Assembly: GCF_014701195.1 (NCBI RefSeq) | Contig: NZ_AP018712.1 | Location: 2,064,501 to 2,128,500, forward strand | DNA from: Tepiditoga spiralis | Lineage (GTDB): Bacteria; Thermotogota; Thermotogae; Petrotogales; Petrotogaceae | Direction of reading: 5' to 3' | Length of the DNA stretch: 64,000 nucleotides | In this document: positions 1-16,811 of the stretch, piece by piece | How the letters are laid out: each line of letters begins with the position of its first letter | Position numbering within the stretch: the stretch's first letter is position 1 | Notes under the pieces: generated by a model | The model's input: the letters and a program-made list of their open reading frames with translations, nothing else | Database searches by the model: none | What the model was told of the DNA's origin: nothing | Program-made: the position numbers and the translations under genes

Positions 1-212
1 AAGATAAAAAAGATAAAAAAATTTCTTTAGATGAATTCATTAAATTACTTTCAAATTGGATATTTTTTGAAGATAAAGAAGAAGATAATATAAGAAAGAA
101 AAAAGCCAAAGAAAAAAAAGCAAAAAAACTAGAACTTGATATAAAAGATTATAGTGAATCTAAAGTTGTATTAAATACATTAAACGAATATATGATTTTA
201 GGAGGATTTTAA
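1..212 (+). CDS. C-terminal end of an unknown protein (partial)
   Basis: An open frame enters from the left edge and runs about 69 codons to a TAA at 210-212 that overlaps the next start codon (TAATG). The visible tail is Lys/Glu-rich and probably helical, ending in NTLNEYMILGGF. I recognise no domain. The AGGAGG that serves the next gene lies inside its last codons, so the two genes are translationally coupled and very likely co-transcribed. Its identity would help decide whether the AAA+ gene that follows belongs to a CRISPR-associated operon. Confidence 0.6.
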   Translation, partial: DKKDKKISLDEFIKLLSNWIFFEDKEEDNIRKKKAKEKKAKKLELDIKDYSESKVVLNTLNEYMILGGF

Positions 213-1510
213 TGATATATATAGAAGAAGAATACGAAGATTTAATAAAACCAATAAAAAATTATTTAAAAAAACAATTTAAATCAAAAGAAGAAAATAT
301 AGATATTAGCAAATTTTTTACAAAAGAGTTTAATAAATGTACAATTTATATTGGAAATATAGATAAATATAACAAATACAAAGAAGAATTTAAAGAGATT
401 GAACCTAAAAAAATAATTTTAATCATAGATAAATATTTAGAAAAAAATATTTTAGAAAATTTTTTTAATTATAATATTATAGGAGTATTTAGAAAAAATA
501 AATTAAATACTGAATATGAAGAAATAGGTAAACTTGAAAAATTATTAAAAAATGAAATTAGAAAGCTAACTTATACAAAATTAGAAAAAGAAGATAAGTT
601 TTATATTAAAAGAATTGCTTATAAAAATATTAAAAATTGGAAATTCAATCCAGAATTCGATAATATAGAAGAATTTTATAGAAAAAGAAAATATATTTCT
701 ATATTTTTAGACATAACTATGCAAAAATTTTCAAGACAAATAAGAACTATTTTAAATGATTTTTATGAATTTAAAGAAAACTATGAAAATACTAAAGAAA
801 AAACTTTTAATGTTTTTCCTACTCTTTTAATAGAAGGAGAAACAGGAACTGGAAAATCATTAATTGCTGATATTATTTCTGATAACCTTCTTTTTGGAGA
901 AACAGCATACAAATTTTCACTTGTAAATATAGAAAAAAATTTAATTGACTCAGAATTATTTGGATATAAAAAAGGCGCTTTTACTGGAGCAGATAAAGAT
1001 AAACCTGGAAGAATAGTTTCTCATAAAGAAGAATTAATATTCTTAGATGAAATATCAGAAATACCCATAGAAACACAAACTAAATTATTATTATACTTTG
1101 ATGATAATAAAGTTTTACCAGAAGGATCCGATGGAGAACCAGAATACGCACCAGCTTTTATAATATGTGCAACAAACAAAAATATAAAAGAAGAAATAAA
1201 CAAAGGTAATTTTAGAAGCGATTTATACCACAGATTTAAATATAAAATAAAAATACCATCATTAAGAGAAAGAAAAGAAGATATAAGATTTTTAATAAAT
1301 TTTATACTATTAAATCCATTCATTAATAAATATGATAAAGAAAATAAAATTTATAAAGTAGATAAAATCTCGCTAGAAGCCATTGAAAAACTAGAAAATT
1401 ATGACTATCCAGGAAACTTTAGAGAACTAGAAAGTATATTAAGAGAAGCCTTGAATATTGCATATTTTGAAAAACAAGATATAATCTTACCAAAACATAT
1501 AAATATATAA
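212..1510 (+). CDS. sigma54-type AAA+ activator lacking a DNA-binding domain
   Basis: This 432-residue protein has a sigma54-activator ATPase core. Walker A is GETGTGKS near residue 210, the sigma54-contacting loop GAFTGAD is near 256, and Walker B LIFLDEIS is near 276, with sensor and arginine-finger regions after it (RSDLYHRF, PSLRERKEDIRF). The first 130 or so residues are not a clear receiver domain, although a strand rich in Ile/Leu (KKIILIIDKYLE) suggests a degenerate Rossmann or sensory fold. The protein stops at LPKHINI, where Fis-type helix-turn-helix domains normally begin, so it has no DNA-binding domain. It is coupled to the upstream partial gene and ends only 3 bp before the conserved CRISPR leader. 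By family it should remodel sigma54 RNA polymerase; its signal and target are unknown. RtcR-like or CRISPR-associated regulators are possible relatives. Confidence 0.8.
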   Translation: MIYIEEEYEDLIKPIKNYLKKQFKSKEENIDISKFFTKEFNKCTIYIGNIDKYNKYKEEFKEIEPKKIILIIDKYLEKNILENFFNYNIIGVFRKNKLNTEYEEIGKLEKLLKNEIRKLTYTKLEKEDKFYIKRIAYKNIKNWKFNPEFDNIEEFYRKRKYISIFLDITMQKFSRQIRTILNDFYEFKENYENTKEKTFNVFPTLLIEGETGTGKSLIADIISDNLLFGETAYKFSLVNIEKNLIDSELFGYKKGAFTGADKDKPGRIVSHKEELIFLDEISEIPIETQTKLLLYFDDNKVLPEGSDGEPEYAPAFIICATNKNIKEEINKGNFRSDLYHRFKYKIKIPSLRERKEDIRFLINFILLNPFINKYDKENKIYKVDKISLEAIEKLENYDYPGNFRELESILREALNIAYFEKQDIILPKHINI

Positions 1511-2900: not shown

Positions 2901-3248
2901 ATGACTTCAGGTTGGAAAAAATGTCCTAATTGTGGGGAAGAAGTACGAGATTATAACAGAAAATGCTTTAATTGTGGATGGATTTTTTATAAAAAAAAAT
3001 GTCCTAGATGTGGAAAATATATGGATGATAGTACAAAAGAATGTCCTAAATGTGGATGGTATTTTTATTGGAATGAATATATCGGAGAAGATGATGGTTG
3101 TTATGAAAATTATGAAGATGATAATGATTACGAAGAAAATTATGAAAATGATTGGGATTTTTTAACTGATTTAGCTAGTGATGTTTCTGGTATAGATTCA
3201 GATTACATTGGAAATGCTGGAGACATTCTTGATGATTATGGATATTAA
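2901..3248 (+). CDS. small double zinc-ribbon protein
   Basis: This 115-residue protein starts after GAGGTGAG. Four CxxC knuckles are visible (CPNC, CFNC, CPRC, CPKC), forming two zinc ribbons each with an aromatic GWxFY strand, within residues 8-53. The remaining half is very acidic (EDD, NYEDDNDYEENYEN) and ends in DDYGY. Zinc-ribbon plus acidic tail proteins usually act as adaptors for nucleic-acid or protein binding; no enzyme motif is present. It sits between array 1 and the TerB/HNH pair, under motif copy 1, and is probably expressed alone since motif copy 2 follows. Function is unknown. Confidence 0.75.
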   Translation: MTSGWKKCPNCGEEVRDYNRKCFNCGWIFYKKKCPRCGKYMDDSTKECPKCGWYFYWNEYIGEDDGCYENYEDDNDYEENYENDWDFLTDLASDVSGIDSDYIGNAGDILDDYGY

Positions 3249-3286: not shown

Positions 3287-3297
3287 AATGTCGAATA
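3287..3297 (+). promoter_or_regulatory. AATGTCGAATA motif, copy 2
   Basis: Exact motif, followed by TTAACTTAGGAAAC, a downstream context shared with copy 3 (TTAATTTAGAAAC). It lies 100 nt before the next gene, further than the other copies (35-44 nt). Confidence 0.5.
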
Positions 3298-3397
3298 TTA
3301 ACTTAGGAAACACTAAATTTATACTAATTTATAAAAAAGATAAAAAATAATTTAAAGATATAAAAAAATATCAAAAAAAATAAGGAGGCGATTTTTT

Positions 3398-4069
3398 ATG
3401 AGTTTATTTAAAGTTTTAGGAGGTATTGTAATTGGAGCAGGCGCAGTAGCTATAGCACCATTTACTGGTGGCGGTTCTGTTTTAGTAGCAGGAATAACTT
3501 TAGCTAAATCACTTGCAGGTGCAGAGGCAGTAGCTGTTGGTGCTGCTGTTATTGGTGCTGCTGGTGCTGTAATTTCTGATATGGACAACGATAATAAAAT
3601 AAATTCAGCTTATAAGAAAGGCATCGAACAAGGAAAATCAGAAAATCTTAGTGAAATGGAAAATTTAAAAAGCAAACTTAAAAAAGCATCTAAAAGATTT
3701 AAAGAATACAAAGAATTTGAAAACTATTTGTTAGCTTGTTATGCAGTAGGAATATCTGTAGCTTGCTGTGATGGGGATTTTTCAGATGCAAAAAAAAATA
3801 CTTTAGAAGAATTTATACAAGGAGTATCATTTAAAAATTATCCTATAACCTTTGAAAAAACTATTCAAATTTTATATAATAACCCTCCAACTTTTGATGA
3901 AGCAATGACATTTGTAAAAAAATCGAATGCAACTGACTTGTGTGTTTTTACAGATATTATTGATATTATTATTGCTTCTGATAATGTTGATAGATATAAA
4001 GAAAGAAAATATAGAGAAGACTGGGAAAACTTTATTTCTGCATATATAAGGAGTGATTGTAATGAGTAA
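3398..4069 (+). CDS. Gly-zipper membrane protein with TerB-like domain
   Basis: 223 residues. The first 60 are extremely Gly/Ala/Val-rich (GGIVIGAGAVAIAPF, AVGAAVIGAAGAVI) and look like one or two glycine-zipper membrane helices. A Lys-rich linker follows. Residues 105-200 resemble the TerB/tellurite-resistance helical fold, with the typical pattern of a hydrophobic helix then an acidic loop (VACCDGDFSDAKKNTLEEF). It starts after AAGGAGG and overlaps the next gene by 8 bp (ATGAGTAA), so the two are made together. TerB domains recur in metal, stress and phage-conflict systems. My reading is a membrane-anchored partner of the HNH protein that follows; no function is demonstrated. Confidence 0.6.
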   Translation: MSLFKVLGGIVIGAGAVAIAPFTGGGSVLVAGITLAKSLAGAEAVAVGAAVIGAAGAVISDMDNDNKINSAYKKGIEQGKSENLSEMENLKSKLKKASKRFKEYKEFENYLLACYAVGISVACCDGDFSDAKKNTLEEFIQGVSFKNYPITFEKTIQILYNNPPTFDEAMTFVKKSNATDLCVFTDIIDIIIASDNVDRYKERKYREDWENFISAYIRSDCNE

Positions 4070-5642
4070 TCGAACAGATAGATTTTTTAAACGAAAAGAA
4101 AAATTACAAAATAAAAAAGAATTATATATCCCTACAGATAGAGAATTAGTTATTCAATTAAAAAATTCTAATGTAGATACTGAAAAAGTAAATAAAATAT
4201 TTGAAATGCAAAATGAAAAGTTTGATTTTTCCTCTAATGATGAAATGAAAAGTTCTGCTAATGAAATACTTGCAGAAATAAGAGGTAATTTTGATCAAGA
4301 AAAATTTGATAATTTAATATTTAGTTTGAAAGAAAAAGTTTTAGATTCAATTATTAAACCATTTGGATTAGAAAAAATATTGTTTGAAGATAAAGATGGT
4401 GGAAATATTACAACAGAACACAATTTTAAAAAAGGTATCACTTCTACAGAATTTGATAATAAAAAATATAACGAATGGCAAAAAAACAAAAATAATAAAT
4501 TTGATAGAAAGCCTTATGAAAAAGATTTTTCAAACAAAAGAAAAGAAATATTTAACTCTGTAAACAAATTAAAAGATGGCTATACTGGAAAAGAAATACC
4601 AAAAGATGGAAGAAGTCATTTAGATCATATTACTTCGGCACATGAAATAGAAATAACATCAACTAATAATCTTTATCTTACAAAAGAAAAACGAATTGAT
4701 ATGGCTAATTCAAATAAAAATCTTACAATGACAGATTCTTCTTTAAATCAATCAAAAAATAATCATGATTTAATGGTTTGGTCTACTAAAACGAACTCAA
4801 AAAATAATAAAATAACAAATACAGAAAAATATGATTTAGATATAGAATTAGTAAATAAAAATTATAATGAATCAAAAAAACACATTAATAAGACTGTTAG
4901 AAATGCAAAAATAAAAAAAAATGGAACTGAATTATTAACAACTGGTGGAAGAGAAGGTATAAAAATGGGACTCCAACAATCATTGGGAATTTTGATCAAA
5001 GAATTTACAGAAGCACTTTTTGTTGAAATTAAGGATATTTATAGAAATGGATTAAAAAATGGTAGATTAGATAAAACTTTTTTAGAAGCAATTAAAGATA
5101 GATTGCAACGAATTTCTAAAAAAGTATTATCTAAGTGGAAAGATCTTGTTAGTACTTTTAAAGATGGTGTAATTAGTGGATTTTTCTCAAATCTAATTAC
5201 TTATATAATTAATACATTTTTAAGTACAGGAAAAAGATTTGTTAGGATTATTAGAGAAGGATTTTTTTCATTATTAAAGGCAATAAAAATTTTAATAATG
5301 CCACCAAAAGGCTTTACATTTAAACAAGCTGCTCATGAAGCAACAAAATTAATATCAACAGGAGTTATTGTATCAGGAGGAATTTTAATTGAAGAGGGAG
5401 TCGAAAAATTTTTACAAACTATTCCTGGTTTAAATATCTTTGCACAAATAATTTCACCTGTTATTATTGGAATTATTACAGGACTTTTATCTGTTTTAAC
5501 TATTTATTTTCTTGATAAAATTGATCTCTTTAAAGTGAACGAAGAAGCAAAACATGAATTCGTTATGAATAAATTGGAAAAAAGGATTGAAGAAGTTTTA
5601 GAGGAATCAGATAATCTTTATAGTGTATTTGAAGTTTCATAA
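4062..5642 (+). CDS. HNH-like nuclease fused to C-terminal membrane segments
   Basis: ATG at 4062 is chosen because AAGGAG lies 9 nt upstream; a GTG at 4053 is too close. The 526-residue protein begins with a charged region. Around residues 170-236 it has an HNH/endonuclease-like signature: GYTGKEIPKDGRSHLDHIT, then ANSNKNL and TDSSLNQSKNNHD, with the expected Asp-His and downstream Asn/His residues. Residues about 425-490 contain two hydrophobic segments (LISTGVIVSGGILIEEG and IISPVIIGIITGLLSVLTIY), so the C-terminus is probably in the membrane. Its partner is the Gly-zipper/TerB-like protein, and the two-gene unit has its own upstream motif. A nuclease tethered to the membrane next to CRISPR arrays suggests a defence effector, which is inference. 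Colicin-like or phage-derived alternatives exist. Confidence 0.6.
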   Translation: MSNRTDRFFKRKEKLQNKKELYIPTDRELVIQLKNSNVDTEKVNKIFEMQNEKFDFSSNDEMKSSANEILAEIRGNFDQEKFDNLIFSLKEKVLDSIIKPFGLEKILFEDKDGGNITTEHNFKKGITSTEFDNKKYNEWQKNKNNKFDRKPYEKDFSNKRKEIFNSVNKLKDGYTGKEIPKDGRSHLDHITSAHEIEITSTNNLYLTKEKRIDMANSNKNLTMTDSSLNQSKNNHDLMVWSTKTNSKNNKITNTEKYDLDIELVNKNYNESKKHINKTVRNAKIKKNGTELLTTGGREGIKMGLQQSLGILIKEFTEALFVEIKDIYRNGLKNGRLDKTFLEAIKDRLQRISKKVLSKWKDLVSTFKDGVISGFFSNLITYIINTFLSTGKRFVRIIREGFFSLLKAIKILIMPPKGFTFKQAAHEATKLISTGVIVSGGILIEEGVEKFLQTIPGLNIFAQIISPVIIGIITGLLSVLTIYFLDKIDLFKVNEEAKHEFVMNKLEKRIEEVLEESDNLYSVFEVS

Positions 5643-6016
5643 TTAACATAGAAGATTTAAAAACTGATCTTTTTATCCGATTTTTAGCATACTTCTAAAA
5701 TAATAAAAAGACCATGCTGTCAACTAAATATAATAGAGGATACATACGAAATCCACTGGCTAACCGCAGTAGAATAATTTTGTACCAAGTGCAAACTACT
5801 AAGAATCAAAATACTCTTGTAAAGTTGGAAAATTTTACATATTTTAATAACCTAAAAAAGTTTTAAATAATGATTTATTAAATAAAAAATTAAGAATGTA
5901 TAAAGATGATTTCTATATTGAACAGGAGTCATTTTTTAATCTTTATTGAGGTCTAAAATTATTGTAATAAAAGATTTAATCTGCAAAGAACTATTTTTAT
6001 AAAGTATTTTATTAAT
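5643..6016. other. gene-free stretch with a GC-richer core
   Basis: No convincing ORF. Positions about 5705-5835 (for example CCACTGGCTAACCGCAGTAG and ACCAAGTGCAAACTACTAAG) are less AT-rich than the surroundings and could be a decayed mobile-element end or a small RNA; I cannot tell which. A weak T-rich site near 5660-5705 (ATCTTTTTATCCGATTTTT) may end the HNH transcript. Confidence 0.3.
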
Positions 6017-6027
6017 AATGTCGAATA
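6017..6027 (+). promoter_or_regulatory. AATGTCGAATA motif, copy 3
   Basis: Exact motif with TTAATTTAGAAAC after it, 41 nt before the Card1-like nuclease gene. Confidence 0.55.
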
Positions 6028-6068
6028 TTAATTTAGAAACACAAAAATAAAAAATAGGGGGAAAAAGT

Positions 6069-6983
6069 ATGAAAAAATTAGAAAATGTTTTAGAAAGAAT
6101 AGCTAACTCATTAGAAGAAATTTCTAATTCATTAAAAATTACGAGTAATTACAATACTCAAAATATTATTTTGAAAAAAGAAATAATAAAAAATGAAGAA
6201 AATATAATAGAAATACCAAGAAAAAATGAAATAGAAGAATTTTTAAACTCTAAAAATATTCAAATAAAGACTTTAAAACCAGAAAAAAATGAAGAAATAT
6301 TAGATAACATAGCATATTTTATGGGTGAAAATTTTGAAAGTATAGAACCTATACTTAAATTATTAAAAAGAAATATAAATAGTTCTAATTATATAAATCT
6401 TGATATGAAAGATTTTACTCAAAGATCTATATCTGATATAACAAATTTATGTAATAGATTATATGAACTTACCTTTTTAAGTTCTTACATATATAAAAAA
6501 TCTCCAAAGTATAATCTTACAGCAAAAGTTAATAAGATACCAGAAGCAATAAATTTTTTAAATGGAGAATGGTTTGAACGTTATTTAAAATTAAAAGTTA
6601 TAAAAAGTTTAGAAATGAACAAACAAAACAAAAAGATAAAATATTCATATATAAAAAATCCACAAATAATATTGCCAAATGGTGATGATTTTGAATTAGA
6701 TTTAATGTTTAAAATTGATGATGAAATATTTTGGATAGAAGCAAAAACTGGTGAATATCAAAATTCTTTAAAAAAATATTCCAAAATAAAAAAAATGTTA
6801 AATTTAAAAAGAAAAAATGTTTTTGTTGTTTTGACAAAAAATTTAGAAGATAGAATGAAAAGTGCTTTAAGCACTATGTTTGATATGAATGTAATAAACA
6901 TTAAAGAATTTGAAAATAAATTTTTAAATAATGTTCTAAACTTAAATGAACATGTAATAGATGAAAAAATAATAAATATTTAA
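6069..6983 (+). CDS. Card1/Can2-like PD-(D/E)XK nuclease without evident CARF
   Basis: 304 residues, starting after a GGGGGAAA site. Residues 1-60 are a predicted coiled coil followed by a charged linker; 60-160 are helical. From about residue 160 the protein matches the nuclease half of the Card1/Can2/DUF1887 family: FLNGEWFERYL (Glu/Trp of the first helix), FELDLMF (metal-binding Asp near 208) and FWIEAKTG (E-x-K near 222-225), then a Lys-rich stretch and VFVVLTKN. In Card1/Can2 this domain is activated by cyclic oligoadenylate bound to an N-terminal CARF domain. Here the N-terminus is too short and too helical to be a normal CARF, so activation must differ. Position between two CRISPR arrays supports a defence role. 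Confidence 0.65.
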   Translation: MKKLENVLERIANSLEEISNSLKITSNYNTQNIILKKEIIKNEENIIEIPRKNEIEEFLNSKNIQIKTLKPEKNEEILDNIAYFMGENFESIEPILKLLKRNINSSNYINLDMKDFTQRSISDITNLCNRLYELTFLSSYIYKKSPKYNLTAKVNKIPEAINFLNGEWFERYLKLKVIKSLEMNKQNKKIKYSYIKNPQIILPNGDDFELDLMFKIDDEIFWIEAKTGEYQNSLKKYSKIKKMLNLKRKNVFVVLTKNLEDRMKSALSTMFDMNVINIKEFENKFLNNVLNLNEHVIDEKIINI

Positions 6984-7095
6984 TAAATAAAATAAAGTAA
7001 ATAGATGAAAAAATATTGGTAATAGGAGTAAGTATAACAAAGAAACCTAATTAGCAAGAACATTTGATAAAAAATAATAAAGGTGGTGATTTTTT

Positions 7096-7524
7096 ATGAA
7101 TTTTAAAAAAAATAAAAAAACTAACTTACCAACAAAAACATCAAAGAATATATCAGTAGGAATACCATTAAATTTTACACAAGTAATTACAGAAATAATT
7201 AATGCTTCATTAGATTATCAAAAAATTAAAGAAGAAGAAAAAACTAAAAGATATATGATTGAAAATCAAACAAAAATAAAAATCGAAGAAATTAGAGCAA
7301 AAAGAGATATATTTATGAAGTACATAGAAGAAAATTATAAAGAAAGATATAGAGTTTATGATAAATTTTTTAATATTTTAGAACTCGGTTTAGAAAAAAA
7401 CAATACACAAGCAATTGAAGCAGCTTTGAATGGAATAATTGCTCAAATAAGAACTAATCCTTTTGAAGGTTTTCATGATTTCAAAAATAAATTGAGTGAT
7501 GAAAATTATACAGCAGAATTTTAA
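7096..7524 (+). CDS. helical protein of unknown function
   Basis: 142 residues after GGTGGTGATTTTTT. Residues 45-110 are a long charged helix or coiled coil (KIKEEEKTKRYMIENQTK, EEIRAKRDIFMKYIEENYK), followed by LGLEKNNTQAIEAALNGIIAQIRTNP. I do not recognise a function. Its 5' untranslated sequence (AATAATAAAGGTGGTGATT) is repeated before the lipoprotein gene at 16300, showing that upstream modules are reused in this island. The next gene begins 26 nt downstream with an AGGAGGGG site, so the two are probably one operon. Codon use matches the neighbours. Confidence 0.6.
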   Translation: MNFKKNKKTNLPTKTSKNISVGIPLNFTQVITEIINASLDYQKIKEEEKTKRYMIENQTKIKIEEIRAKRDIFMKYIEENYKERYRVYDKFFNILELGLEKNNTQAIEAALNGIIAQIRTNPFEGFHDFKNKLSDENYTAEF

Positions 7525-7550
7525 AAAAATAAAAAAGGAGGGGAATAAAT

Positions 7551-8717
7551 ATGCCATTACCTTTTATTTTAGCTGCATTAGGTATAACTGGTTTTAGTGT
7601 TGGAGTGGCTAGCTTAGACGAAATGGAGGAAGCAAAAAAAAAAAAAGAACAAGCAAGTAATTCGTATGAAGATAAAAAAAAACATTTTCATAAAGTTGAA
7701 AATAAAATAGATAGAAAAGCAAATAGGCTTACAAATTTAAAACGTGGTGTATATAAAAATAGCATATCAAGATTTTTAAGACTATATAGTTATTTTCAAA
7801 ACATAAATGAAAATAAGCCAAACTTAAATAATAAAATACCAACTTTCAGAGAAATAAACGAACTAGATTATCAAAGAAAAACTTTTATAAATGAAACAGA
7901 TGCAATAATAAAAGCAATAAATGGAGGAGCATTAGTTAGTTTAGGAACATATGGAATAATGAACATTATGGGAACAGAAACATTAAGCATTTTATCAGGC
8001 GCAGCTATTGGAGAATCTATCGCTGGTACAATAGGATCGGTATTGTTAGGAAGTGTTTTACTTGGACCAGCACTTGCAATAGGTGGAATCATTTTGAGTT
8101 CAGAATCATCAAAAGCAATGACTGAAGCAATAGAATATGAAAATAACGTTAAAAAAGCAAATGAAAAAATAAATAATTCTATTGAATTTTTGTATGCAAT
8201 TGGTAGAAGAATAAAAGAATTTAATTATGTAATAAATAAATTAAACGAAAGTTTAATAAAAAGTATGAATGAAGTTGAAAATATCCATCAAAAACTTTCA
8301 AATAAATATAAATATAAAAATATACCTATAAGATATAAAGAATATGACTTAACAGAAGTTGAAAAAATAAAAATATATAACATGTTTATAATAGCTAAAG
8401 CTTTAAAAGAAGTTTTAGAAACACCTATAATAAATAAATCTGGAAATATAAGTAAAAAATCTAAAAAAGTAGTTTCAAACATGAAATCTGCTTTAAATAC
8501 TACAATTAATAATTATAAAAGAATTAATAATACTACAATAAAAAAAACTAATAATAATAATAATAATTATAATAAATCATTCGAAAAAAAACCAACAATA
8601 GTAAAATCAATGTCAATAAAAGACAAAAATAAAAATAATCTCATTATCAAAAAAAATAACAAGAATACTTTACAAACAAATTCAAATACACACATCATAA
8701 GTTATACAAAATTATAA
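7551..8717 (+). CDS. coiled-coil protein with central Gly/Ala-rich hydrophobic segment
   Basis: 388 residues. The start has a short hydrophobic segment (PFILAALGITGFSVGVASL), followed by a long Lys/Glu coiled coil. The centre (about 125-185) is a run of Gly-rich hydrophobic helices (GGALVSLGTYGIMNIMG, LSGAAIGESIAGTIGSVLLG, LAIGGIILSS) like a pore-forming or glycine-zipper hairpin. A second helical region follows. The last 80 residues are Asn/Lys-rich low complexity. The layout of helices flanking a hydrophobic hairpin is seen in pore-forming toxins and phage tail-associated membrane proteins, but I recognise no family. It probably works with the helical protein encoded 26 nt upstream. A strong terminator follows. 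Confidence 0.6.
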   Translation: MPLPFILAALGITGFSVGVASLDEMEEAKKKKEQASNSYEDKKKHFHKVENKIDRKANRLTNLKRGVYKNSISRFLRLYSYFQNINENKPNLNNKIPTFREINELDYQRKTFINETDAIIKAINGGALVSLGTYGIMNIMGTETLSILSGAAIGESIAGTIGSVLLGSVLLGPALAIGGIILSSESSKAMTEAIEYENNVKKANEKINNSIEFLYAIGRRIKEFNYVINKLNESLIKSMNEVENIHQKLSNKYKYKNIPIRYKEYDLTEVEKIKIYNMFIIAKALKEVLETPIINKSGNISKKSKKVVSNMKSALNTTINNYKRINNTTIKKTNNNNNNYNKSFEKKPTIVKSMSIKDKNKNNLIIKKNNKNTLQTNSNTHIISYTKL

Positions 8718-9020: not shown

Positions 9021-10482
9021 GTCTGAATGCTACTCTTCCCTGAAAGGGATAATAACTTTTCTGTTTGAACTAAAATTAAAACCATATTTTTTGTTGTCTG
9101 AATGCTACTCTTCCCTGAAAGGGATAATAACTTAGCTAAGCTAAGAACCTTAATTAGCTTAATCAATTCGTCTGAATGCTACTCTTCCCTGAAAGGGATA
9201 ATAACGTATAATTGGCAACCTCCATGTCATTTACTTTGGGTAGAGTCTGAATGCTACTCTTCCCTGAAAGGGATAATAACTACTTGCCCCTTATCTCATT
9301 GTTGTCCAACCATTTCTGTCGTCTGAATGCTACTCTTCCCTGAAAGGGATAATAACACCCTTATTAACTTAGTTACTTCATGTTCATCCATAACTGTCTG
9401 AATGCTACTCTTCCCTGAAAGGGATAATAACTACTTGCCCCTTATCTCATTGTTGTCCAACCATTTCTGTCGTCTGAATGCTACTCTTCCCTGAAAGGGA
9501 TAATAACACCCTTATTAACTTAGTTACTTCATGTTCATCCATAACTGTCTGAATGCTACTCTTCCCTGAAAGGGATAATAACACTATTCTACTCTTTTTT
9601 TCTGGAAGAAATATATCTCTATGTCTGAATGCTACTCTTCCCTGAAAGGGATAATAACTAGATATGAAACATTTCTAAGTGATTGAATTTGAATCCTGTC
9701 TGAATGCTACTCTTCCCTGAAAGGGATAATAACCTGGGTCAATGAAACTAACTAGACCCAAAAAACTTCCAGATGTCTGAATGCTACTCTTCCCTGAAAG
9801 GGATAATAACTTTTTCTTCATCATAATATCTATTAACATATTATAGTCGTCTGAATGCTACTCTTCCCTGAAAGGGATAATAACATCTTCCTCCCAAAAT
9901 AAATCATAAATTTCTTCTCTAATGTCTGAATGCTACTCTTCCCTGAAAGGGATAATAACTAATTTGAGAACAAGCCTTTCGGGCTTGCTCGAAAATATGT
10001 CTGAATGCTACTCTTCCCTGAAAGGGATAATAACTTGCTATCTTAATTTTATTTGTAAGTTCTTCAGATAATTGTCTGAATGCTACTCTTCCCTGAAAGG
10101 GATAATAACATAAATAATTAAAATGTATACTTTGTCGAATAGTTCGAAGTCTGAATGCTACTCTTCCCTGAAAGGGATAATAACTGTATACATATCCTTC
10201 ATTTACTTTAATTACAAACTTTGTCTGAATGCTACTCTTCCCTGAAAGGGATAATAACTTCAAATGTTTCACTGAAATACATATAACCATCAATAGCGTC
10301 TGAATGCTACTCTTCCCTGAAAGGGATAATAACTAATTTGAGAACAAGCCTTTCGGGCTTGCTCGAAAATATGTCTGAATGCTACTCTTCCCTGAAAGGG
10401 ATAATAACACTTACATAAACTTTATTATCTATTATTCTCATACCTTGTCTGAATGCTACTCTTCCCTGAAAGGGATAATAAC
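9021..10482 (+). CRISPR. CRISPR array 2: 20 repeats, 19 spacers
   Basis: 36-nt repeats starting GTCTGAATGCTACTC; they differ from array 1 only at repeat positions 8 and 10, and the stem-loop and ATAATAAC end are the same. Starts: 9021, 9096, 9170, 9245, 9321, 9396, 9472, 9547, 9623, 9698, 9775, 9849, 9924, 9999, 10074, 10149, 10223, 10298, 10373, 10447. Two consecutive spacers (9281-9320 and 9357-9395) are repeated at once as 9432-9471 and 9508-9546, a 151-bp tandem duplication. The spacer at 9960-9998 recurs at 10334-10372. The last repeat here is intact, and the degenerate true end of the array lies at 15451. Confidence 0.97.
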
Positions 10483-10611: not shown

Positions 10612-10677
10612 CCTTTTTTTTATTTTAAAGAAGATTTGATATAATAACATGTAAGGATATAAAAAGAGGTGATAAAA

Positions 10678-12465
10678 ATGAAAAAAAGGCTTCCAATAGG
10701 AAGAAGTGACTTCAAATCTTTAATTGAAGATAATATGTATTTTGTAGATAAAAGCTTGTTAATAAAAGAAGTTATTGAAAGTGGCGATGTTTTATTAATA
10801 ACAAGGCCAAGAAGGTTTGGGAAAACTCTCAGTCAATCTATGATGAAGTACTTTTTTGATATTACTCAAAATAACGAACACCTCTTTAAAGCTTTAAAAA
10901 TATATAAAGAAAAGAACATAATAGAAAAACATTTAAATAAACATCCTGTTATATACATCACCTTTAAAGATTTAAAGTCCAACAACTTAAAAAAGATGCA
11001 TGATTTATTAATTTCTGAACTTTCAACTTTGTATATAGATCATAAGTATGTTTTAGATGTATTAGATGAAGAAGAAAAATCAGTATATAAATCAATAACC
11101 TCAAAAAAAGCAAATGATTCTGAATATGAAAATTCTATAAGAAACTTATCAAAGTATATGGAAAGATATTATGGTAAAAAGGTAATAATATTAATAGATG
11201 AATACGATACTCCTATTCAACAAGCTTACTTACACGGATACTATGATGAAATAATATCTTTAATTGGTAACTTATTTGGCATGGCATTAAAAGATAACGT
11301 ATATCTTGAAAAAGCAGTTCTTACTGGTATAACAAGAGTTTCTAAAGAAAGTATCTTTACTGGTGTGAATAACTTAAAGGTTTCTACTGTATTGAATGAA
11401 CTATTCAATGATAAGTATGGTTTAACTAAAGAAGAAGTAGAAGAAACATTGAAGTATTATGATCTTGAATATGAAGAAAGTGAAGTTATAGATTGGTACA
11501 ACGGTTATAACTTTGGTGGTGTTGAAATTTACAATCCTTTTTCTATTATAAACTTAGTAGATGAGAAAAAGATAGGACCATATTGGATGAATACGAGTGG
11601 GAATTATTTAATAAGAAAGTTAATAAAAGAAGGAACTGTTAATATAAAAGATAGTATAGAAAAACTTTTGAATGGAGAAAAGGTTGAAAGTAAAATAAAT
11701 GAAACTATGGTTTATGGTGATTTGCACATAAATTCAAATGAATCAATATGGACATTGTTTTTATTTAGCGGTTACTTAAAATGGATTAAAGAAACAAAAG
11801 AAGGTTATAGAAGATACACACTTGCTATTCCAAATAAAGAAGTAAGAATGTTTTATGAAGATACAGTGTTATTAATGCTTGAAGAAGAAAATATACAATT
11901 AGATAATATACTAATAAACTTAATAAATGGACATATAGAAGAGTTTAAAGAAGACTTTCAAAAACTAACAATGAATACATTGAGTTATTTTGATGTTAGT
12001 GGAGAAGAACCAGAAAGGTTTTATCATGGATTAATACTTGGAATGAGCGTTGGATTAAAAGAAAAGTACATAATAAAGAGTAATAGAGAAACATGGCTTG
12101 GAAGAGCTGATGTTATATTAATTCCAAAAGATAAAACAGATAAAGGAATAATAATAGAGTTTAAAAAGTTTTATAAAAACGAAAAAACACTATTAAATAG
12201 CGCTCAAAATGGATTAAAACAAATAAATGAAAAGAAGTATGAAGAAGAGATAAAAAATTATGGTATAAATGACATAATAAAAGTTTCAATAGCTTTTGAC
12301 AAAAAAGAGGTTGAAATTGTTAGTAATTTGGATAAAGATACTGAATTAACAGAAATGGAAAAAGTAGCAAAAGGAATGTTAGAAAAAAAGTTAGATATAA
12401 ATATGATTTCTGAATTAACTGGTATTCCAATAGAAAAATTAAAAAATATGTATAATCATTTATAA
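10678..12465 (+). CDS. AAA-ATPase-like/PDDEXK_9 fusion protein
   Basis: ATG at 10678 (MKKRLPIGRSDFKSL) is preferred over GTG 10669 because GAGGTG lies 6-7 nt before it. The 595-residue protein has the AAA-ATPase_like layout: FVDKSLLI, a variant Walker A TRPRRFGKTL near residue 40 and Walker B VIILIDEYDTPI near 175. The C-terminal half has a PDDEXK_9 nuclease-like core (WLGRADVILIPKD, then IIIEFKKF) and ends in a short helical motif (MISELTGIPIEKLKNMY). It is a divergent relative of the two genes at 45208 and 56583. Such proteins are abundant and mobile in anaerobes; their role is unproven, perhaps phage defence. It has its own promoter-like TATAAT near 10640 and a terminator. Confidence 0.85.
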   Translation: MKKRLPIGRSDFKSLIEDNMYFVDKSLLIKEVIESGDVLLITRPRRFGKTLSQSMMKYFFDITQNNEHLFKALKIYKEKNIIEKHLNKHPVIYITFKDLKSNNLKKMHDLLISELSTLYIDHKYVLDVLDEEEKSVYKSITSKKANDSEYENSIRNLSKYMERYYGKKVIILIDEYDTPIQQAYLHGYYDEIISLIGNLFGMALKDNVYLEKAVLTGITRVSKESIFTGVNNLKVSTVLNELFNDKYGLTKEEVEETLKYYDLEYEESEVIDWYNGYNFGGVEIYNPFSIINLVDEKKIGPYWMNTSGNYLIRKLIKEGTVNIKDSIEKLLNGEKVESKINETMVYGDLHINSNESIWTLFLFSGYLKWIKETKEGYRRYTLAIPNKEVRMFYEDTVLLMLEEENIQLDNILINLINGHIEEFKEDFQKLTMNTLSYFDVSGEEPERFYHGLILGMSVGLKEKYIIKSNRETWLGRADVILIPKDKTDKGIIIEFKKFYKNEKTLLNSAQNGLKQINEKKYEEEIKNYGINDIIKVSIAFDKKEVEIVSNLDKDTELTEMEKVAKGMLEKKLDINMISELTGIPIEKLKNMYNHL

Positions 12466-12928: not shown

Positions 12929-14473
12929 ATGATAAGATTGGGCCAAAAAAGAGAAATAATAATATTATATTTTAGAGAAAACAAATCAGAGATAAGCAGA
13001 AAAACAGGAATTAACAGAAAAACAGTAAATAAATATATAAATGAATATGAAGATGCATTAAAAGAATTTGAAAAGGTAGAAAGTAAAAAGAGTAAAGAAG
13101 AAATAATAGAAATTATAACAGGTAAACCAAAATATAAAGTTTCAAATAGAAAACCCAGAAAAGTCACAGAAGAATTAAGAATTAAAATAGAAGAGTTAGT
13201 TAAAGCAAATGAATTAAAAAGGCAAAAAGGGTTGAGAAAACAAACTATGCCAGTTACTCAAATGTATGAAATTATTCGAGATGAAGGGTATGAGATTAGT
13301 ATAGGAACAATATATAATATTGTAAAGAAATTTAATACAAAAAGAACTAAAGAGGCTTATATAAAACAAAGATATAATCCTGGAGAAATTGTTGAATTCG
13401 ATTGGGGAGAAGTTAAGTTAGAAATAAATGGAATCAATAAAAAGTTTCAAATGGCAGTATTTACTTTTGCATATAGTAATTATAGATATGCGTTATTGTA
13501 TGAAAAACAAAATATGGAGAGTTTTATAGATTCACACGTAAGGTTTTTTGAACATATTGGTGGTATTAATAAAACTATTGTATATGACAATATGAAAGTT
13601 GCAATAAGAAAATTTGTAGGGCATAACGATAGAGAGTTGACAGATGATTTAACTAAATTATCATTATATTATAAATTCGATATAAGGTTTTGTAATGTGA
13701 GAAAACCAAATGAAAAAGGTCATGTAGAAAAGAGTGTCAATGTATTGAAACAAAGAGCATTTTCAATAAAAGATAAATTTAAAAATATAGATGATGCAAA
13801 TGAATTTTTGAGTTCAAGAGTCAAATATTTAAATGAAAATATGAAAAACACATCAAACATTAGCCCTTTAAAGTTGTTAAAAGAAGAAAAAGAATATTTA
13901 ATATGCAAACCACCAAAATATGAATATTCAATAATAAAAGAAGTTTATGTAGATAAATATTCAACTATAACTTTAAATAACTGTCATTACTCGGTACCAG
14001 TAGAATATACTAATAAATGGTTAAAGGTTAAGTTATATCCAGAAAAGATAATAATATATGATGAAAAACCTATTGCTACTCATAAAAGGTTATATGGTAA
14101 TAATATGTGGAAAATAGAAATAAATCATTATTTATCATTATTAAAAAGAAAACCTGGTGCATTGCATAGTAGTTTAGCTCTGCATCAGGTCCCACAAAAA
14201 ATAAAAAAAATCTACAATAACTATTTTACCACAAAACCAAAAGAATTCATAAACTTATTAGAGTATATGTATAAAAATAATTTAAGAATAAATGATATTG
14301 AAGAAACAATTGAAAAGTTAGAACGTATAAGTCCAAAAGATATAAGCGCTACAAAAATAAAGATACTCTATGAAAATAAAATTAATAATAATCAAAAAAA
14401 TAAATATCAAGGAACAATAGAAGAATATTCAAGAAAACAATTGTTGCATTTAAAAGAGCTGATCAAATCATGA
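12929..14473 (+). CDS. istA: IS21-family transposase IstA
   Basis: ATG at 12929 (MIRLGQKREII) follows AAGGA and lies inside the element; an in-frame ATG at 12812 would start outside it. The 514-residue protein has an N-terminal helix-turn-helix (ISRKTGINRKTVNKYI), a second DNA-binding region, and an rve integrase core with EFDWGEVKL (first Asp), YDNMKVAI (second Asp) and NEKGHVEKSV (Glu). The end is a C-terminal binding domain. Its stop overlaps the istB start (ATGA), the usual IS21 arrangement. The gene looks intact. Confidence 0.93.
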   Translation: MIRLGQKREIIILYFRENKSEISRKTGINRKTVNKYINEYEDALKEFEKVESKKSKEEIIEIITGKPKYKVSNRKPRKVTEELRIKIEELVKANELKRQKGLRKQTMPVTQMYEIIRDEGYEISIGTIYNIVKKFNTKRTKEAYIKQRYNPGEIVEFDWGEVKLEINGINKKFQMAVFTFAYSNYRYALLYEKQNMESFIDSHVRFFEHIGGINKTIVYDNMKVAIRKFVGHNDRELTDDLTKLSLYYKFDIRFCNVRKPNEKGHVEKSVNVLKQRAFSIKDKFKNIDDANEFLSSRVKYLNENMKNTSNISPLKLLKEEKEYLICKPPKYEYSIIKEVYVDKYSTITLNNCHYSVPVEYTNKWLKVKLYPEKIIIYDEKPIATHKRLYGNNMWKIEINHYLSLLKRKPGALHSSLALHQVPQKIKKIYNNYFTTKPKEFINLLEYMYKNNLRINDIEETIEKLERISPKDISATKIKILYENKINNNQKNKYQGTIEEYSRKQLLHLKELIKS

Positions 14474-15236
14474 AAAATAACAAAAATAAAATATATGAAG
14501 AAATAGAGTTTTATTCAAAAGAATTAAAGTTATCAAAATTAAAAATACATTTTAAAGAATATATAAAAGATGCAAATAATACAGAGATAAGTTATGAATC
14601 ATTTTTGTATGAGATATTAAAAAAAGAATATGAAAGATTATTAGATTCAAGATTAAAAAGCAGGATAAGAACAGCAAATTTCTCACAAAAAAAATATATA
14701 GAAGATTTAGAAAAAGAATATTTACCAGAAGATGCAAGAAAAAAATTAAAAGTATTATCTACATTAGAATTTATACAAACAAATCAGAATGTAATATTAT
14801 CTGGTAATCCTGGAACAGGGAAAACTCATATAGCAATAGGACTTGGTATGAAAGCTTGTATGAAAGGATTTAAAGTATTATTTACAACAATTCCATTATT
14901 AATAACTCAATTAAAAGAATCTAGATCAAATAAAACTTTGAGAGCTTTTCAAAGTAAATTTGGAAAATATGACCTTGTAATATGTGATGAATTAGGATAC
15001 ATATCTTTTGACAAAGAAGGTGCTGAATTATTATTTTCTTTATTATCTCTAAGAGCAACAAGAAAATCTACTGTAATAACAACTAATTTATCCTTTGATA
15101 GATGGGAAGAAATATTTAATGATCCTGTATTATCTGCAGCTATGATCGATAGATTAACTCATAGAGCTTATATGGCCAATATGAACATAGTTATAGATTA
15201 AAAGAAACAGAAGAATTTATAAAATCTTTGGATTGA
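14470..15236 (+). pseudogene. istB: IS21-family helper ATPase IstB, C-terminus frameshifted
   Basis: DnaA/IstB-like AAA+ protein with Walker A SGNPGTGKTHIA near residue 115 and Walker B DLVICDELGY near 170, then TTNLSFDRW. The frame stops at 15201 after NIVID. The expected family ending is visible just downstream in another frame (LKETEEFIKSLD, stop at 15236), so about 10-13 bases have been lost, probably between the nearby direct repeats TATAGAT. Only the last dozen residues are affected, so partial activity is possible, but the element may be immobile. Confidence 0.8.
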
Positions 15237-15381
15237 TTGGAGGGATGCTTATAGAAAGATTGGTGAGATTATAATATTAACAAACTCTTAATGTTTCCTG
15301 AAACGTGGTTTTATTCAGCGTTTTATTTTTTTGGCCCATTTTTCAATTGTAATTTGGCTTATTCTTCACTTGCAAAATACA

Positions 15382-15480
15382 GAATGCTACTCTTCCCTGA
15401 AAGGGATAATAACATGTATTCGACCCCACTTTTTCTCAAGATAACTTTAAGTCTGAATGCTACTCTTCCCTGAAAGGGAT
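15382..15480 (+). CRISPR. displaced terminal fragment of array 2
   Basis: A repeat lacking its first four bases (15382-15413), one 37-nt spacer (15414-15450) and a final repeat starting at 15451 that degenerates after 30 nt. The repeats carry the array 2 version (GAATGCTACTC). The degenerate end and following CATATTCTTCAGCAA resemble the end of array 1 (GCATTTTCTTCAACAA), so this is the real leader-distal end of array 2. Confidence 0.9.
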
Positions 15481-15546
15481 TAATCATATTCTTCAGCAAG
15501 TTCTGAAAATACTTTATTTTTTTATTTAAAGTATCATAAATTAGAA

Positions 15547-15577
15547 GATGCATTTTCAATGAAAATGCATCTTTTTT
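15547..15577 (+). terminator. rho-independent terminator, duplicated module
   Basis: GATGCATTTTC-AAT-GAAAATGCATC plus TTTTTT; a near copy of the hairpin at 12487. Confidence 0.75.
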
Positions 15578-15589
15578 ATTTATTTGTTT

Positions 15590-15600
15590 AATGTCGAATA
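15590..15600 (+). promoter_or_regulatory. AATGTCGAATA motif, copy 5
   Basis: Exact motif preceded by ATTTATTTGTTT, as in copy 4, and followed by ATAACATAGAGAAAC; 44 nt before the start codon of the next gene. Confidence 0.55.
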
Positions 15601-15644
15601 ATAACATAGAGAAACAAAAAATATAAAAAAGGATGGTGAAAATC

Positions 15645-15986
15645 ATGGATGTAATAGTAAAATTAGCTTCGTTTGGTGTATTGGGTATGGTAATTTTAGC
15701 AATGTTAGCAACATCAGGTTTAGCTGGTGCTGCTGCTATATCTACAACCTTATCAACACTTGGTGGTCCTGCTGGTATGGCTGGTGGAATGCTTGTTTTA
15801 GCTTCTGCTCCTGTTATAGTCAATTATTTAGATAATTATGGAATTGATTATGCAATGAAAAAATTAATGCGTGAATACAAAAAGAAAGGTTATTCAAAAT
15901 ATGAATTAAGACATGAAATTTCTAAACTTTGGATTACTAAAGGTTTTAAGGAAAAATTGTATTATTATGTTGATACTTTATATTAA
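15645..15986 (+). CDS. Gly/Ala-rich membrane protein of unknown function
   Basis: ATG at 15645 has AAGGATGG upstream; the in-frame ATG at 15633 overlaps that site and is rejected. 113 residues: the first 65 form two hydrophobic Gly/Ala-rich helices (LASFGVLGMVILAMLATSG and GGPAGMAGGMLVLASAPVI). The remainder is basic and aromatic (MREYKKKGYSKYELRHE, KLYYYVDTLY). Composition of the hydrophobic part resembles the starts of the proteins at 3398 and 7551, so the island has several glycine-zipper proteins. Bacteriocin-like, pore-forming or anchor functions are all possible. A clear terminator follows. Confidence 0.6.
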   Translation: MDVIVKLASFGVLGMVILAMLATSGLAGAAAISTTLSTLGGPAGMAGGMLVLASAPVIVNYLDNYGIDYAMKKLMREYKKKGYSKYELRHEISKLWITKGFKEKLYYYVDTLY

Positions 15987-15991
15987 TTCTT

Positions 15992-16018
15992 GGGAGCTTT
16001 TGCTCCCTATTTTTTATT
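15992..16018 (+). terminator. rho-independent terminator
   Basis: GGGAGC-TTTT-GCTCCC followed by TATTTTTTATTT. Confidence 0.85.
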
Positions 16019-16062
16019 TGTTTTATAAAAGTATTTAAAAAAATTCGAAAGGAGGAGTAAAC

Positions 16063-16197
16063 ATGTTAGAATTTATAATTGGTATAGTAATTGGAACATT
16101 ATTTTCAGAACAAATAAAAGAATTAACTAAGCATTTTTTTAAGTATTATGATAAAAAAATAAATGAAAAGAAAAATGAAGAAAAAAAAGAAGATTAA
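16063..16197 (+). CDS. 44-residue single-pass membrane peptide
   Basis: Excellent GGAGGAG site, then MLEFIIGIVIGTLFSE (membrane helix with GxxxG) and a Lys/Glu tail ending EEKKED. It is a paralogue of the 34-residue ORF at 12581; the sequence is shared over the first 16 residues while the tails differ. It lies between two terminators and so is its own transcription unit or is read from copy 5. Function unknown. Confidence 0.6.
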   Translation: MLEFIIGIVIGTLFSEQIKELTKHFFKYYDKKINEKKNEEKKED

Positions 16198-16205
16198 ATC
16201 TCTTT

Positions 16206-16236
16206 GAGGAGCTTTGCTCCTCTTTATTTATTTTTA
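16206..16236 (+). terminator. rho-independent terminator
   Basis: GAGGAGC-TTT-GCTCCTC followed by TTTATTTATTTTT. Confidence 0.8.
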
Positions 16237-16244
16237 CAATTAAT

Positions 16245-16255
16245 AATGTCGAATC
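16245..16255 (+). promoter_or_regulatory. AATGTCGAATC motif, copy 6
   Basis: Ten of eleven bases of the island motif (last base C), 44 nt before the lipoprotein gene. Confidence 0.5.
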
Positions 16256-16299
16256 ATAATTTGATAAAAGATAAAAAATAATAAAGGTGGTGATTTTTT

Positions 16300-16569
16300 A
16301 TGAAAAAAGTATTTATAATTATTTCAACGATTATATTAATGTTATTTTCATCATGCACAAATTTATATTTAGCAGAAACCACTAAAAATCAAAGTATAGT
16401 AATAGAAAACCAAACAAAAATGATAGAAAGTTTATTGATATTTTTAATTTTAGCATTATTTATAATAATATTTCTTATAGTTAGTTTAAAAATAATAAAA
16501 GGTGAAAAAAGCAATGAAATACAAAAAAATTCTACCAATGAAAAAGAAATTTATAAAAAAAATAATTAA
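16300..16569 (+). CDS. small lipoprotein with one membrane segment
   Basis: 89 residues. The N-terminus MKKVFIIISTIILMLFSSCTN is a lipoprotein signal with Cys after LFSS. A second hydrophobic helix (LLIFLILALFIIIFLIVSL, about residues 45-65) and a Lys/Asn-rich tail follow. Phage Rz1-like or entry-exclusion lipoproteins are comparable in size, but I see no diagnostic motif. The ribosome-binding region GGTGGTGATTTTTT is the same as that of the gene at 7096. It precedes a 42-codon ORF by 40 nt, probably as one operon. Confidence 0.55.
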   Translation: MKKVFIIISTIILMLFSSCTNLYLAETTKNQSIVIENQTKMIESLLIFLILALFIIIFLIVSLKIIKGEKSNEIQKNSTNEKEIYKKNN

Positions 16570-16609
16570 AATTAATACTATTTATAAAAAAGTATTGGAG
16601 GTGAAATAA

Positions 16610-16738
16610 ATGAAATTAATAGAAATAGATGTATATATGATGATGTTATTATTAACTGGAAAAACTAAGGAAGAAGCTATAAAAATTACAGCCAAACATT
16701 TTAATGTATCTGAAAATTTCATTATTGAAAATGAATAG
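16610..16738 (+). CDS. 42-residue protein of unknown function
   Basis: 42 codons after TTGGAGGTG. Sequence starts MKLIEIDVYMMMLLLTGKTK and continues EEAIKITAKHFNVSENFI, a helix-turn-helix-like amphipathic pattern typical of short phage or plasmid proteins. The good ribosome site and tight position after the lipoprotein gene support expression. It could be an XRE-like fragment or an antitoxin-like peptide; neither is shown. A bidirectional terminator separates it from the convergent CYTH-HD gene. Confidence 0.45.
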   Translation: MKLIEIDVYMMMLLLTGKTKEEAIKITAKHFNVSENFIIENE

Positions 16739-16774
16739 CACAAAATTATAATAACTCAAATTCAAAAAATATAA

Positions 16775-16806
16775 AAAATAAAGGTGAATAATTCACCTTT
16801 ATTTTA
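16775..16806. terminator. bidirectional terminator
   Basis: AATAAAGGTGAA-TAA-TTCACCTTTATT, flanked by A and T tracts, between convergent genes. Confidence 0.75.
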
Positions 16807-16811
16807 AATTA

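Follow-up and report, generated by a model that had tools for sequence, protein, structure and literature searches.

A TerB-like protein and a predicted membrane-anchored HNH nuclease form a conserved gene pair with a putative role in anti-phage defence

The window analysed here—a stretch of 64,000 nucleotides of the Tepiditoga spiralis genome—carries two overlapping genes: the upstream one encodes a glycine-zipper TerB protein (P0001) and the downstream one an HNH protein whose C-terminal helices are hydrophobic (P0002). With a probability of about one half, this TerB–HNH pair is a two-component membrane-associated anti-phage unit consisting of a TerB sensor or adaptor and a membrane-anchored HNH DNase. 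This reading is based on the conserved pairing, the invariant active site, and the fusions in which a TerB partner is joined to JukA or BnzA, and, in addition, on the WYL and PADLOC neighbours, the near-absence from viral contigs, and the location between type III-B arrays.

The overlapping gene pair

P0001 (positions 3398–4069) and P0002 (positions 4062–5642) are both encoded on the forward strand. The end of P0001, with the stop codon TAA at 4067–4069, and the start of P0002 overlap by exactly 8 bp, so that the two-gene unit described in the initial annotation is reproduced in its reading frames and its overlap. The ATG at 4062 is preceded by the Shine–Dalgarno sequence AAGGAG and is most plausibly the start of P0002; the list of open reading frames holds, in addition, a longer alternative from a GTG at 4053. 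Both genes are single-copy in this 2.5-Mb genome. Sequence conservation and the repeated adjacency of the two genes exclude a chance arrangement. A homologue of P0002 is absent from the 60 Thermotogota relatives searched, suggesting that the gene was acquired horizontally; on the tree of the HNH family, the closest row belongs to Alicyclobacillus (46% identity) and the next to a Paraclostridium plasmid.

The HNH protein P0002

P0002 consists of 526 aa counted from the ATG and features an HNH domain (residues ∼150–280), long helices, and hydrophobic C-terminal helices. Residues 78–507 match the PADLOC candidate family PDC-M40B with an E-value of 3e-108. In the alignments, the HNH core covers residues ∼170–234 (positions 4569–4764, forward strand) with the segments DGYTGKE, LDHI, NLTMT, and LNQSK. 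H189, N220, and N229 are unchanged in 91 of 91 aligned homologues, and D188 is either D or E; hence, the HNH residues, on whose conservation the initial annotation had made its reading depend, are invariant. G113, G114, T118, and N121 are also unchanged across the 91 homologues, and the motif GGN(V/I)-T--N constitutes a second invariant region of the family.

The model of residues ∼150–280 features a β–β–α arrangement at a pLDDT above 90. This part aligns with Vvn/EndoI at Z values of 6.5 to 6.9 and with Cas9 HNH domains at 4.5 to 6.0—modest values, reached by several different HNH/EndoI structures on one and the same region. Model and conservation together bear out the HNH-like centre that had been read from the sequence. 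P0002 resembles the Cas9-type HNH domains in the layout of the active site, D-H...N...N/K, and in the fold; in contrast to Cas9, it lacks the RNA-guided parts and is fused to hydrophobic helices. Going by the modelled HNH fold, the substrate is assumed to be DNA.

The helices of the model span residues 261–524, and the helices 420–452 and 458–487 form a hairpin-like pair. By hydropathy, the strongest hydrophobic stretch comprises residues 453–490 and a weaker one residues 369–388. Two C-terminal membrane helices, as initially claimed, are a fair reading of the hydrophobic stretches and the hairpin-like pair, with the topology being a predicted one. Foldseek searches with the whole models gave no significant match; the rows in which VIA-align placed the C-terminal helices on GPCRs and further helical proteins, at Z values of 5 to 7, were judged uninformative and speak neither for nor against a JukB-like or pore-forming structure.

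These helices, making up half of P0002 and including both hydrophobic stretches, are also the starting point of the main rival explanation. It regards P0002 as an abortive effector—a membrane-disrupting toxin acting through its C-terminal helices or a degrader of the host chromosome—that TerB restrains until infection. Overlapping genes are likewise seen in toxin–antitoxin pairs, and a precedent is Juk, in which JukA, a sensor of early phage proteins at the EPI vesicle, recruits the pore-forming JukB (PMC13282480). However, the HNH triad is invariant, which argues that catalysis matters; the PADLOC profile of JukB finds no match in P0002; and some loci feature quite different partners, namely M40C or a glycine-zipper protein, so that TerB is no obligatory antitoxin. 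An abortive effector is judged rather unlikely.

The TerB protein P0001

P0001 consists of 223 aa and is composed of a glycine zipper (residues 1–63), a helical linker, and a C-terminal TerB domain (residues ∼104–219), as delineated from the reading frame, the Pfam matches of the family, the fold, and hydropathy. Residues 1–63 form a Gly/Ala-rich hydrophobic run without a break, in keeping with the zipper claimed earlier. By itself, P0001 stays below the Pfam cut-off for TerB (PF05099). The family is recognisable from the genes that adjoin HNH homologues, and 10 of its 17 members match PF05099 (E-values up to 0.1; best 5.9e-7). The AlphaFold model, built from a 17-row alignment, leaves the N terminus unmodelled (pLDDT below 50 for residues 7–63). 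Its residues 104–219 align with the tellurite-resistance protein 2ou3 at a Z value of 9.4 (108 residues, rmsd 3.9) and with 2h5n at 8.1, the following row reaching only 4.7. Through its relatives and its modelled fold, P0001 is classed as a TerB protein, and the earlier claim of a TerB-like domain stands. Convincing matches of P0001 to JukA, BnzA, or any PADLOC family are lacking, and tblastn with its sequence alone yielded zero plasmid relatives.

TerB was first described in tellurite and stress operons, and this origin favours another explanation: a membrane stress or conflict system—an interbacterial toxin with its immunity protein or a Ter-type stress response—instead of phage defence. In line with this, PDC-M40A, which partners the HNH protein in a related clade, carries the annotation SMI1/KNR4, and this domain is frequent in immunity proteins. 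Yet P0002 shows no sign of an export signal, a variable toxin tip, or a domain for secretion or delivery, and TerB partners are fused to the known defence proteins JukA and BnzA. A stress or conflict system is considered improbable.

Distribution and partners of the HNH family

Relatives of the HNH protein were sought with an alignment profile in ∼85,000 genomes: 231 candidates yielded 207 relatives, and 80 loci were kept. Single-sequence scans of genomes and viral contigs with P0002 found no relatives, whereas the alignment query did. In contrast to the 207 relatives in genomes, 2.9 million viral contigs (IMG/VR) yielded only two. The family is further represented in 72 plasmid records and seven Aeromonas phage records. 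In the Aeromonas jumbo phage LAh10 (L012, positions 4934–7530), the HNH gene adjoins a gene for a glycine-zipper partner; the module is, hence, not exclusively host defence. The LAh10 HNH protein is annotated as a cobalamin adenosyltransferase, and the same name is widespread for the family in plasmid records (L011, positions 5968–7539; L013, positions 6004–7575; and similar ones). This name looks wrong since the alignment shows an HNH nuclease.

The partner census covers 90 readable HNH loci, one of which (L004) was counted from its annotation. The TerB family adjoins the HNH gene in 38 of the 90, mostly directly upstream and with short gaps or overlaps. Beside the HNH gene, 26 loci feature the coiled-coil protein PDC-M40C, and 11 feature a PDC-M09A-like glycine-zipper protein, or 12 if one case that is not immediately adjacent is counted; the partners in the remaining ∼15 are other proteins. 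At L005, the one PDC-M40C locus checked, the SMI1-like PDC-M40A precedes the HNH gene. The TerB-partnered loci are distributed over five phyla: Bacillota, Campylobacterota, Pseudomonadota, Thermodesulfobacteriota, and that of the window.

The usual layout of the TerB partner is a glycine zipper followed by TerB, with three variations. In Pseudomonas, the partners carry an additional N-terminal repeat region that looks amphipathic from its sequence. In seven loci (L008, L088, L089, L092, L094, L097, and L098), the partner is fused to a JukA domain, as judged from profile matches at L008, L097, and L098 and, at the other four, from a sequence nearly identical to that of L008. At L056, the partner comprises 776 aa, of which residues 1–526 match BnzA (E-value of 6e-115) and the end is a glycine-zipper–TerB module.

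A tree of 89 HNH proteins was calculated with a quick method and midpoint rooting (25 of 83 branches weakly supported). Partner labels change 11 times on this tree, compared with a mean of 42.5 for shuffled labels, which indicates an evolutionary stability of the partners. TerB is found as a label on either deep side of the tree, and PDC-M40C is limited to one subtree. This distribution suggests that TerB–HNH is the ancestral arrangement and PDC-M40 a derived one. The PDC-M40 database entry, judging from the tree, seems to cover the derived branch only, so that current annotation may miss TerB–HNH pairs.

Genomic neighbours and defence context

WYL regulators, whose domains are predicted to sense ligands and to regulate defence (PMC4012209), occur in the neighbourhood of 26 of the 90 HNH loci (raw count). 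Among the 106 genes neighbouring TerB–HNH pairs, WYL is matched 12 times (raw count), and MADS, Lamassu (LmuB), PDC, and other PADLOC families are each matched once or twice. The PHROG matches near these pairs are integrases at a few loci, transporters, and regulators; head or tail families are absent from the matches listed. A role as a prophage or conjugative structural gene, raised in the initial annotation, was rejected: homologues are mostly chromosomal or plasmid-borne, with integrases in few loci and no head or tail families among the PHROGs listed.

Relation to known systems

Relatives of each part of the TerB–HNH pair belong to defence systems that are either candidates or validated. 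The pair is akin to PDC-M40 via the homology of P0002 to PDC-M40B. However, PDC-M40 loci contain an A (SMI1-like) and a C (coiled-coil) gene, in place of which the pair of the window has the TerB protein; neither PDC-M40A nor PDC-M40C was found among the scanned neighbours in the window, whereas both are present at L005. With Juk, the pair would share the plan of a sensor and a membrane-active effector, and some TerB partners of the HNH family start with JukA; P0001 is devoid of a JukA domain, and P0002 is an HNH nuclease by its predicted fold and gives no match to the JukB profile.

Shango and Bunzi are defence systems with TerB domains (PMC10952713); Shango was tested in PMC10250203. Bunzi (BnzA/BnzB) resembles the pair by its TerB content and by the L056 fusion of BnzA with a glycine-zipper–TerB module beside an HNH gene, but BnzA matches neither P0001 nor P0002. 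Shango uses an ATPase and a helicase, whereas the pair has a putative membrane HNH nuclease and no directly adjoining ATPase or helicase gene. Dionysus, a defence system of Pseudomonas aeruginosa, reportedly contains a TerB homologue (PMC12926258) and is described as preventing EPI vesicle formation (PMC13282480); the comparison with the TerB–HNH pair covers the presence of TerB.

No description of the TerB–HNH pair as such, or of PDC-M40 by name, was found in the searchable literature. The initial annotation could name no such defence system, which holds for the pair as a whole; the nuclease, in turn, belongs to PDC-M40B of PADLOC, and TerB partners fuse to JukA or BnzA. Likewise, of its proposal of a defence unit joining a membrane nuclease and TerB, the domain reading (by sequence and model) and the conserved pairing hold, whereas the unit is not without kin—PDC-M40B, Shango, and Bunzi.

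Proposed mechanism

As an anti-phage unit, the pair could operate as follows. P0001 would insert into or lie on the inner membrane via its glycine zipper and would sense, or serve as an adaptor for, an early phage protein or a membrane event associated with infection. It would then recruit or release the HNH protein. P0002, anchored by its C-terminal hydrophobic helices, would cut DNA near the membrane, the target being presumably phage DNA on entry and less likely host DNA.

The type III-B CRISPR island

In a type III-B island, the pair is located between two CRISPR arrays: the upstream array at positions 1756–2601 with 12 exact matches of the 24-mer repeat and the downstream one at positions 9033–10482 with 20. 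Upstream in the genome lie Cmr genes and Cas10—both named from sequence reading—and CARF proteins. An Argonaute–Cas1–Cas2–primase cluster, also upstream, resembles by sequence that of Marinitoga piezophila (PMC8211822).

A 23-bp element, AATGTCGAATAaTAaTTTaGAAA (also given as AATGTCGAATA), occurs in 19 copies, all within the CRISPR island and on the gene strand, and not all of them independent because some lie in duplicated genes. Six are found in the window (2850, 3287, 6017, 12535, 15590, and 16245) and 13 more at genome positions 2021112–2058201. All 13 exact 12-mer matches of the genome fall within 59 kb, compared with none for the reversed control. The element commonly lies 44 to 55 nt before gene starts; the copy of the TerB gene, AATGTCGAATATTAACTTAGGAA (positions 3287–3309, forward strand), lies 111 nt before the start of P0001. 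ATG TCG is invariant, and the codons after it differ mostly by synonymous changes (MSN[N/I]NLE), so that the element may act as a promoter, as a leaderless start or mini-ORF, or as a leader peptide.

This setting leads to a further explanation, in which the pair is an ancillary effector of type III CRISPR that the Cmr complex of the island activates via cyclic oligoadenylate or via island-specific transcription. The position between the arrays, beside the Cmr operon and CARF proteins, and the island-only element upstream of the pair would fit. Nevertheless, neither P0001 nor P0002 has a CARF or SAVED domain detectable with Pfam and PADLOC models, and the other HNH loci are without a CRISPR-like array—one Photobacterium locus has an annotated csm6. 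A recurrent CRISPR linkage of TerB–HNH was, hence, rejected; the linkage is particular to this genome. Only transcription or an unseen signal could place the pair under the direct control of type III CRISPR, and the ancillary effector as a whole is judged improbable.

Two further genes of the window follow the pair on the forward strand. A PD-(D/E)XK protein (positions 6069–6983) shows weak matches to CARF-PDDEXK/Csx1 models and has a AATGTCGAATAaTAaTTTaGAAA element upstream. A glycine-zipper protein of 388 aa (positions 7551–8717) is PDC-M09A-like (“chemotaxis”; phmmer E-value of 1e-9, hmmsearch 1e-10 in a small database) and, being related by sequence to the alternative HNH partner, is a possible second partner of P0002.

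Several other genes of the island were observed. A CARF–CYTH–HD protein (positions 16812–19544, reverse strand) matches CARF7 of PADLOC with an E-value of 2e-192, and a similar-looking gene lies at genome positions 2022712–2025273. Island genes at positions 2901–3248, 6069–6983, 10669–12465, and 15633–15986 exist in at least two near-identical copies each and comprise a zinc ribbon, the PD-(D/E)XK protein, an AAA-type protein of 598 aa, and a glycine-rich membrane protein of 117 aa; each is near a AATGTCGAATAaTAaTTTaGAAA copy or an array. VWA-like proteins, recognised by sequence reading (genome positions 2034550–2035233, 2046478–2047257, and 2030691–2031470), together with a PP2C-phosphatase-like gene (2035264–2036283), resemble parts of TerY/Ter-type signalling.

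A divergent fused β–β′ RNA polymerase of 1414 aa with the catalytic motif NADFDGD (L002, positions 13673–18713) follows the Cmr genes. It forms a cassette (genome positions 2059672–2066010) with a 275-aa gene and, as the third gene, an RtcR-like sigma-54 activator ATPase with a GAFTGA loop (window positions 212–1510, forward strand). The polymerase is present in 18 of 61 genomes searched, and a three-gene order recurs in the 11 loci of relatives that were inspected, most of them with Cas6, Cas3, CARF, or Cas10 nearby. No description of the cassette was found in the literature searched, and it may be more novel than the TerB–HNH pair. The AATGTCGAATAaTAaTTTaGAAA element as promoter of this polymerase is unsupported outside this genome: polymerase-bearing relatives show scattered single matches only.

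A more far-reaching version of the anti-phage reading, to which we give a slim chance, sees TerB–HNH as the original form of a widespread nuclease system for membrane surveillance, whose HNH effector docks interchangeable membrane sensors—glycine zipper, JukA, BnzA, or amphipathic repeats—and which is here wired into a type III CRISPR island with a fused RNA polymerase and an island-only element of its own, so that CRISPR recognition would activate an innate nuclease via dedicated transcription.

Implications

The TerB–HNH pair, apparently undescribed so far, links the PDC-M40 candidates, the sensors of Juk and Bunzi, and TerB proteins, and it offers concrete residues and partners for testing. 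If the pair protects, it would help to explain the role of TerB domains in immunity.
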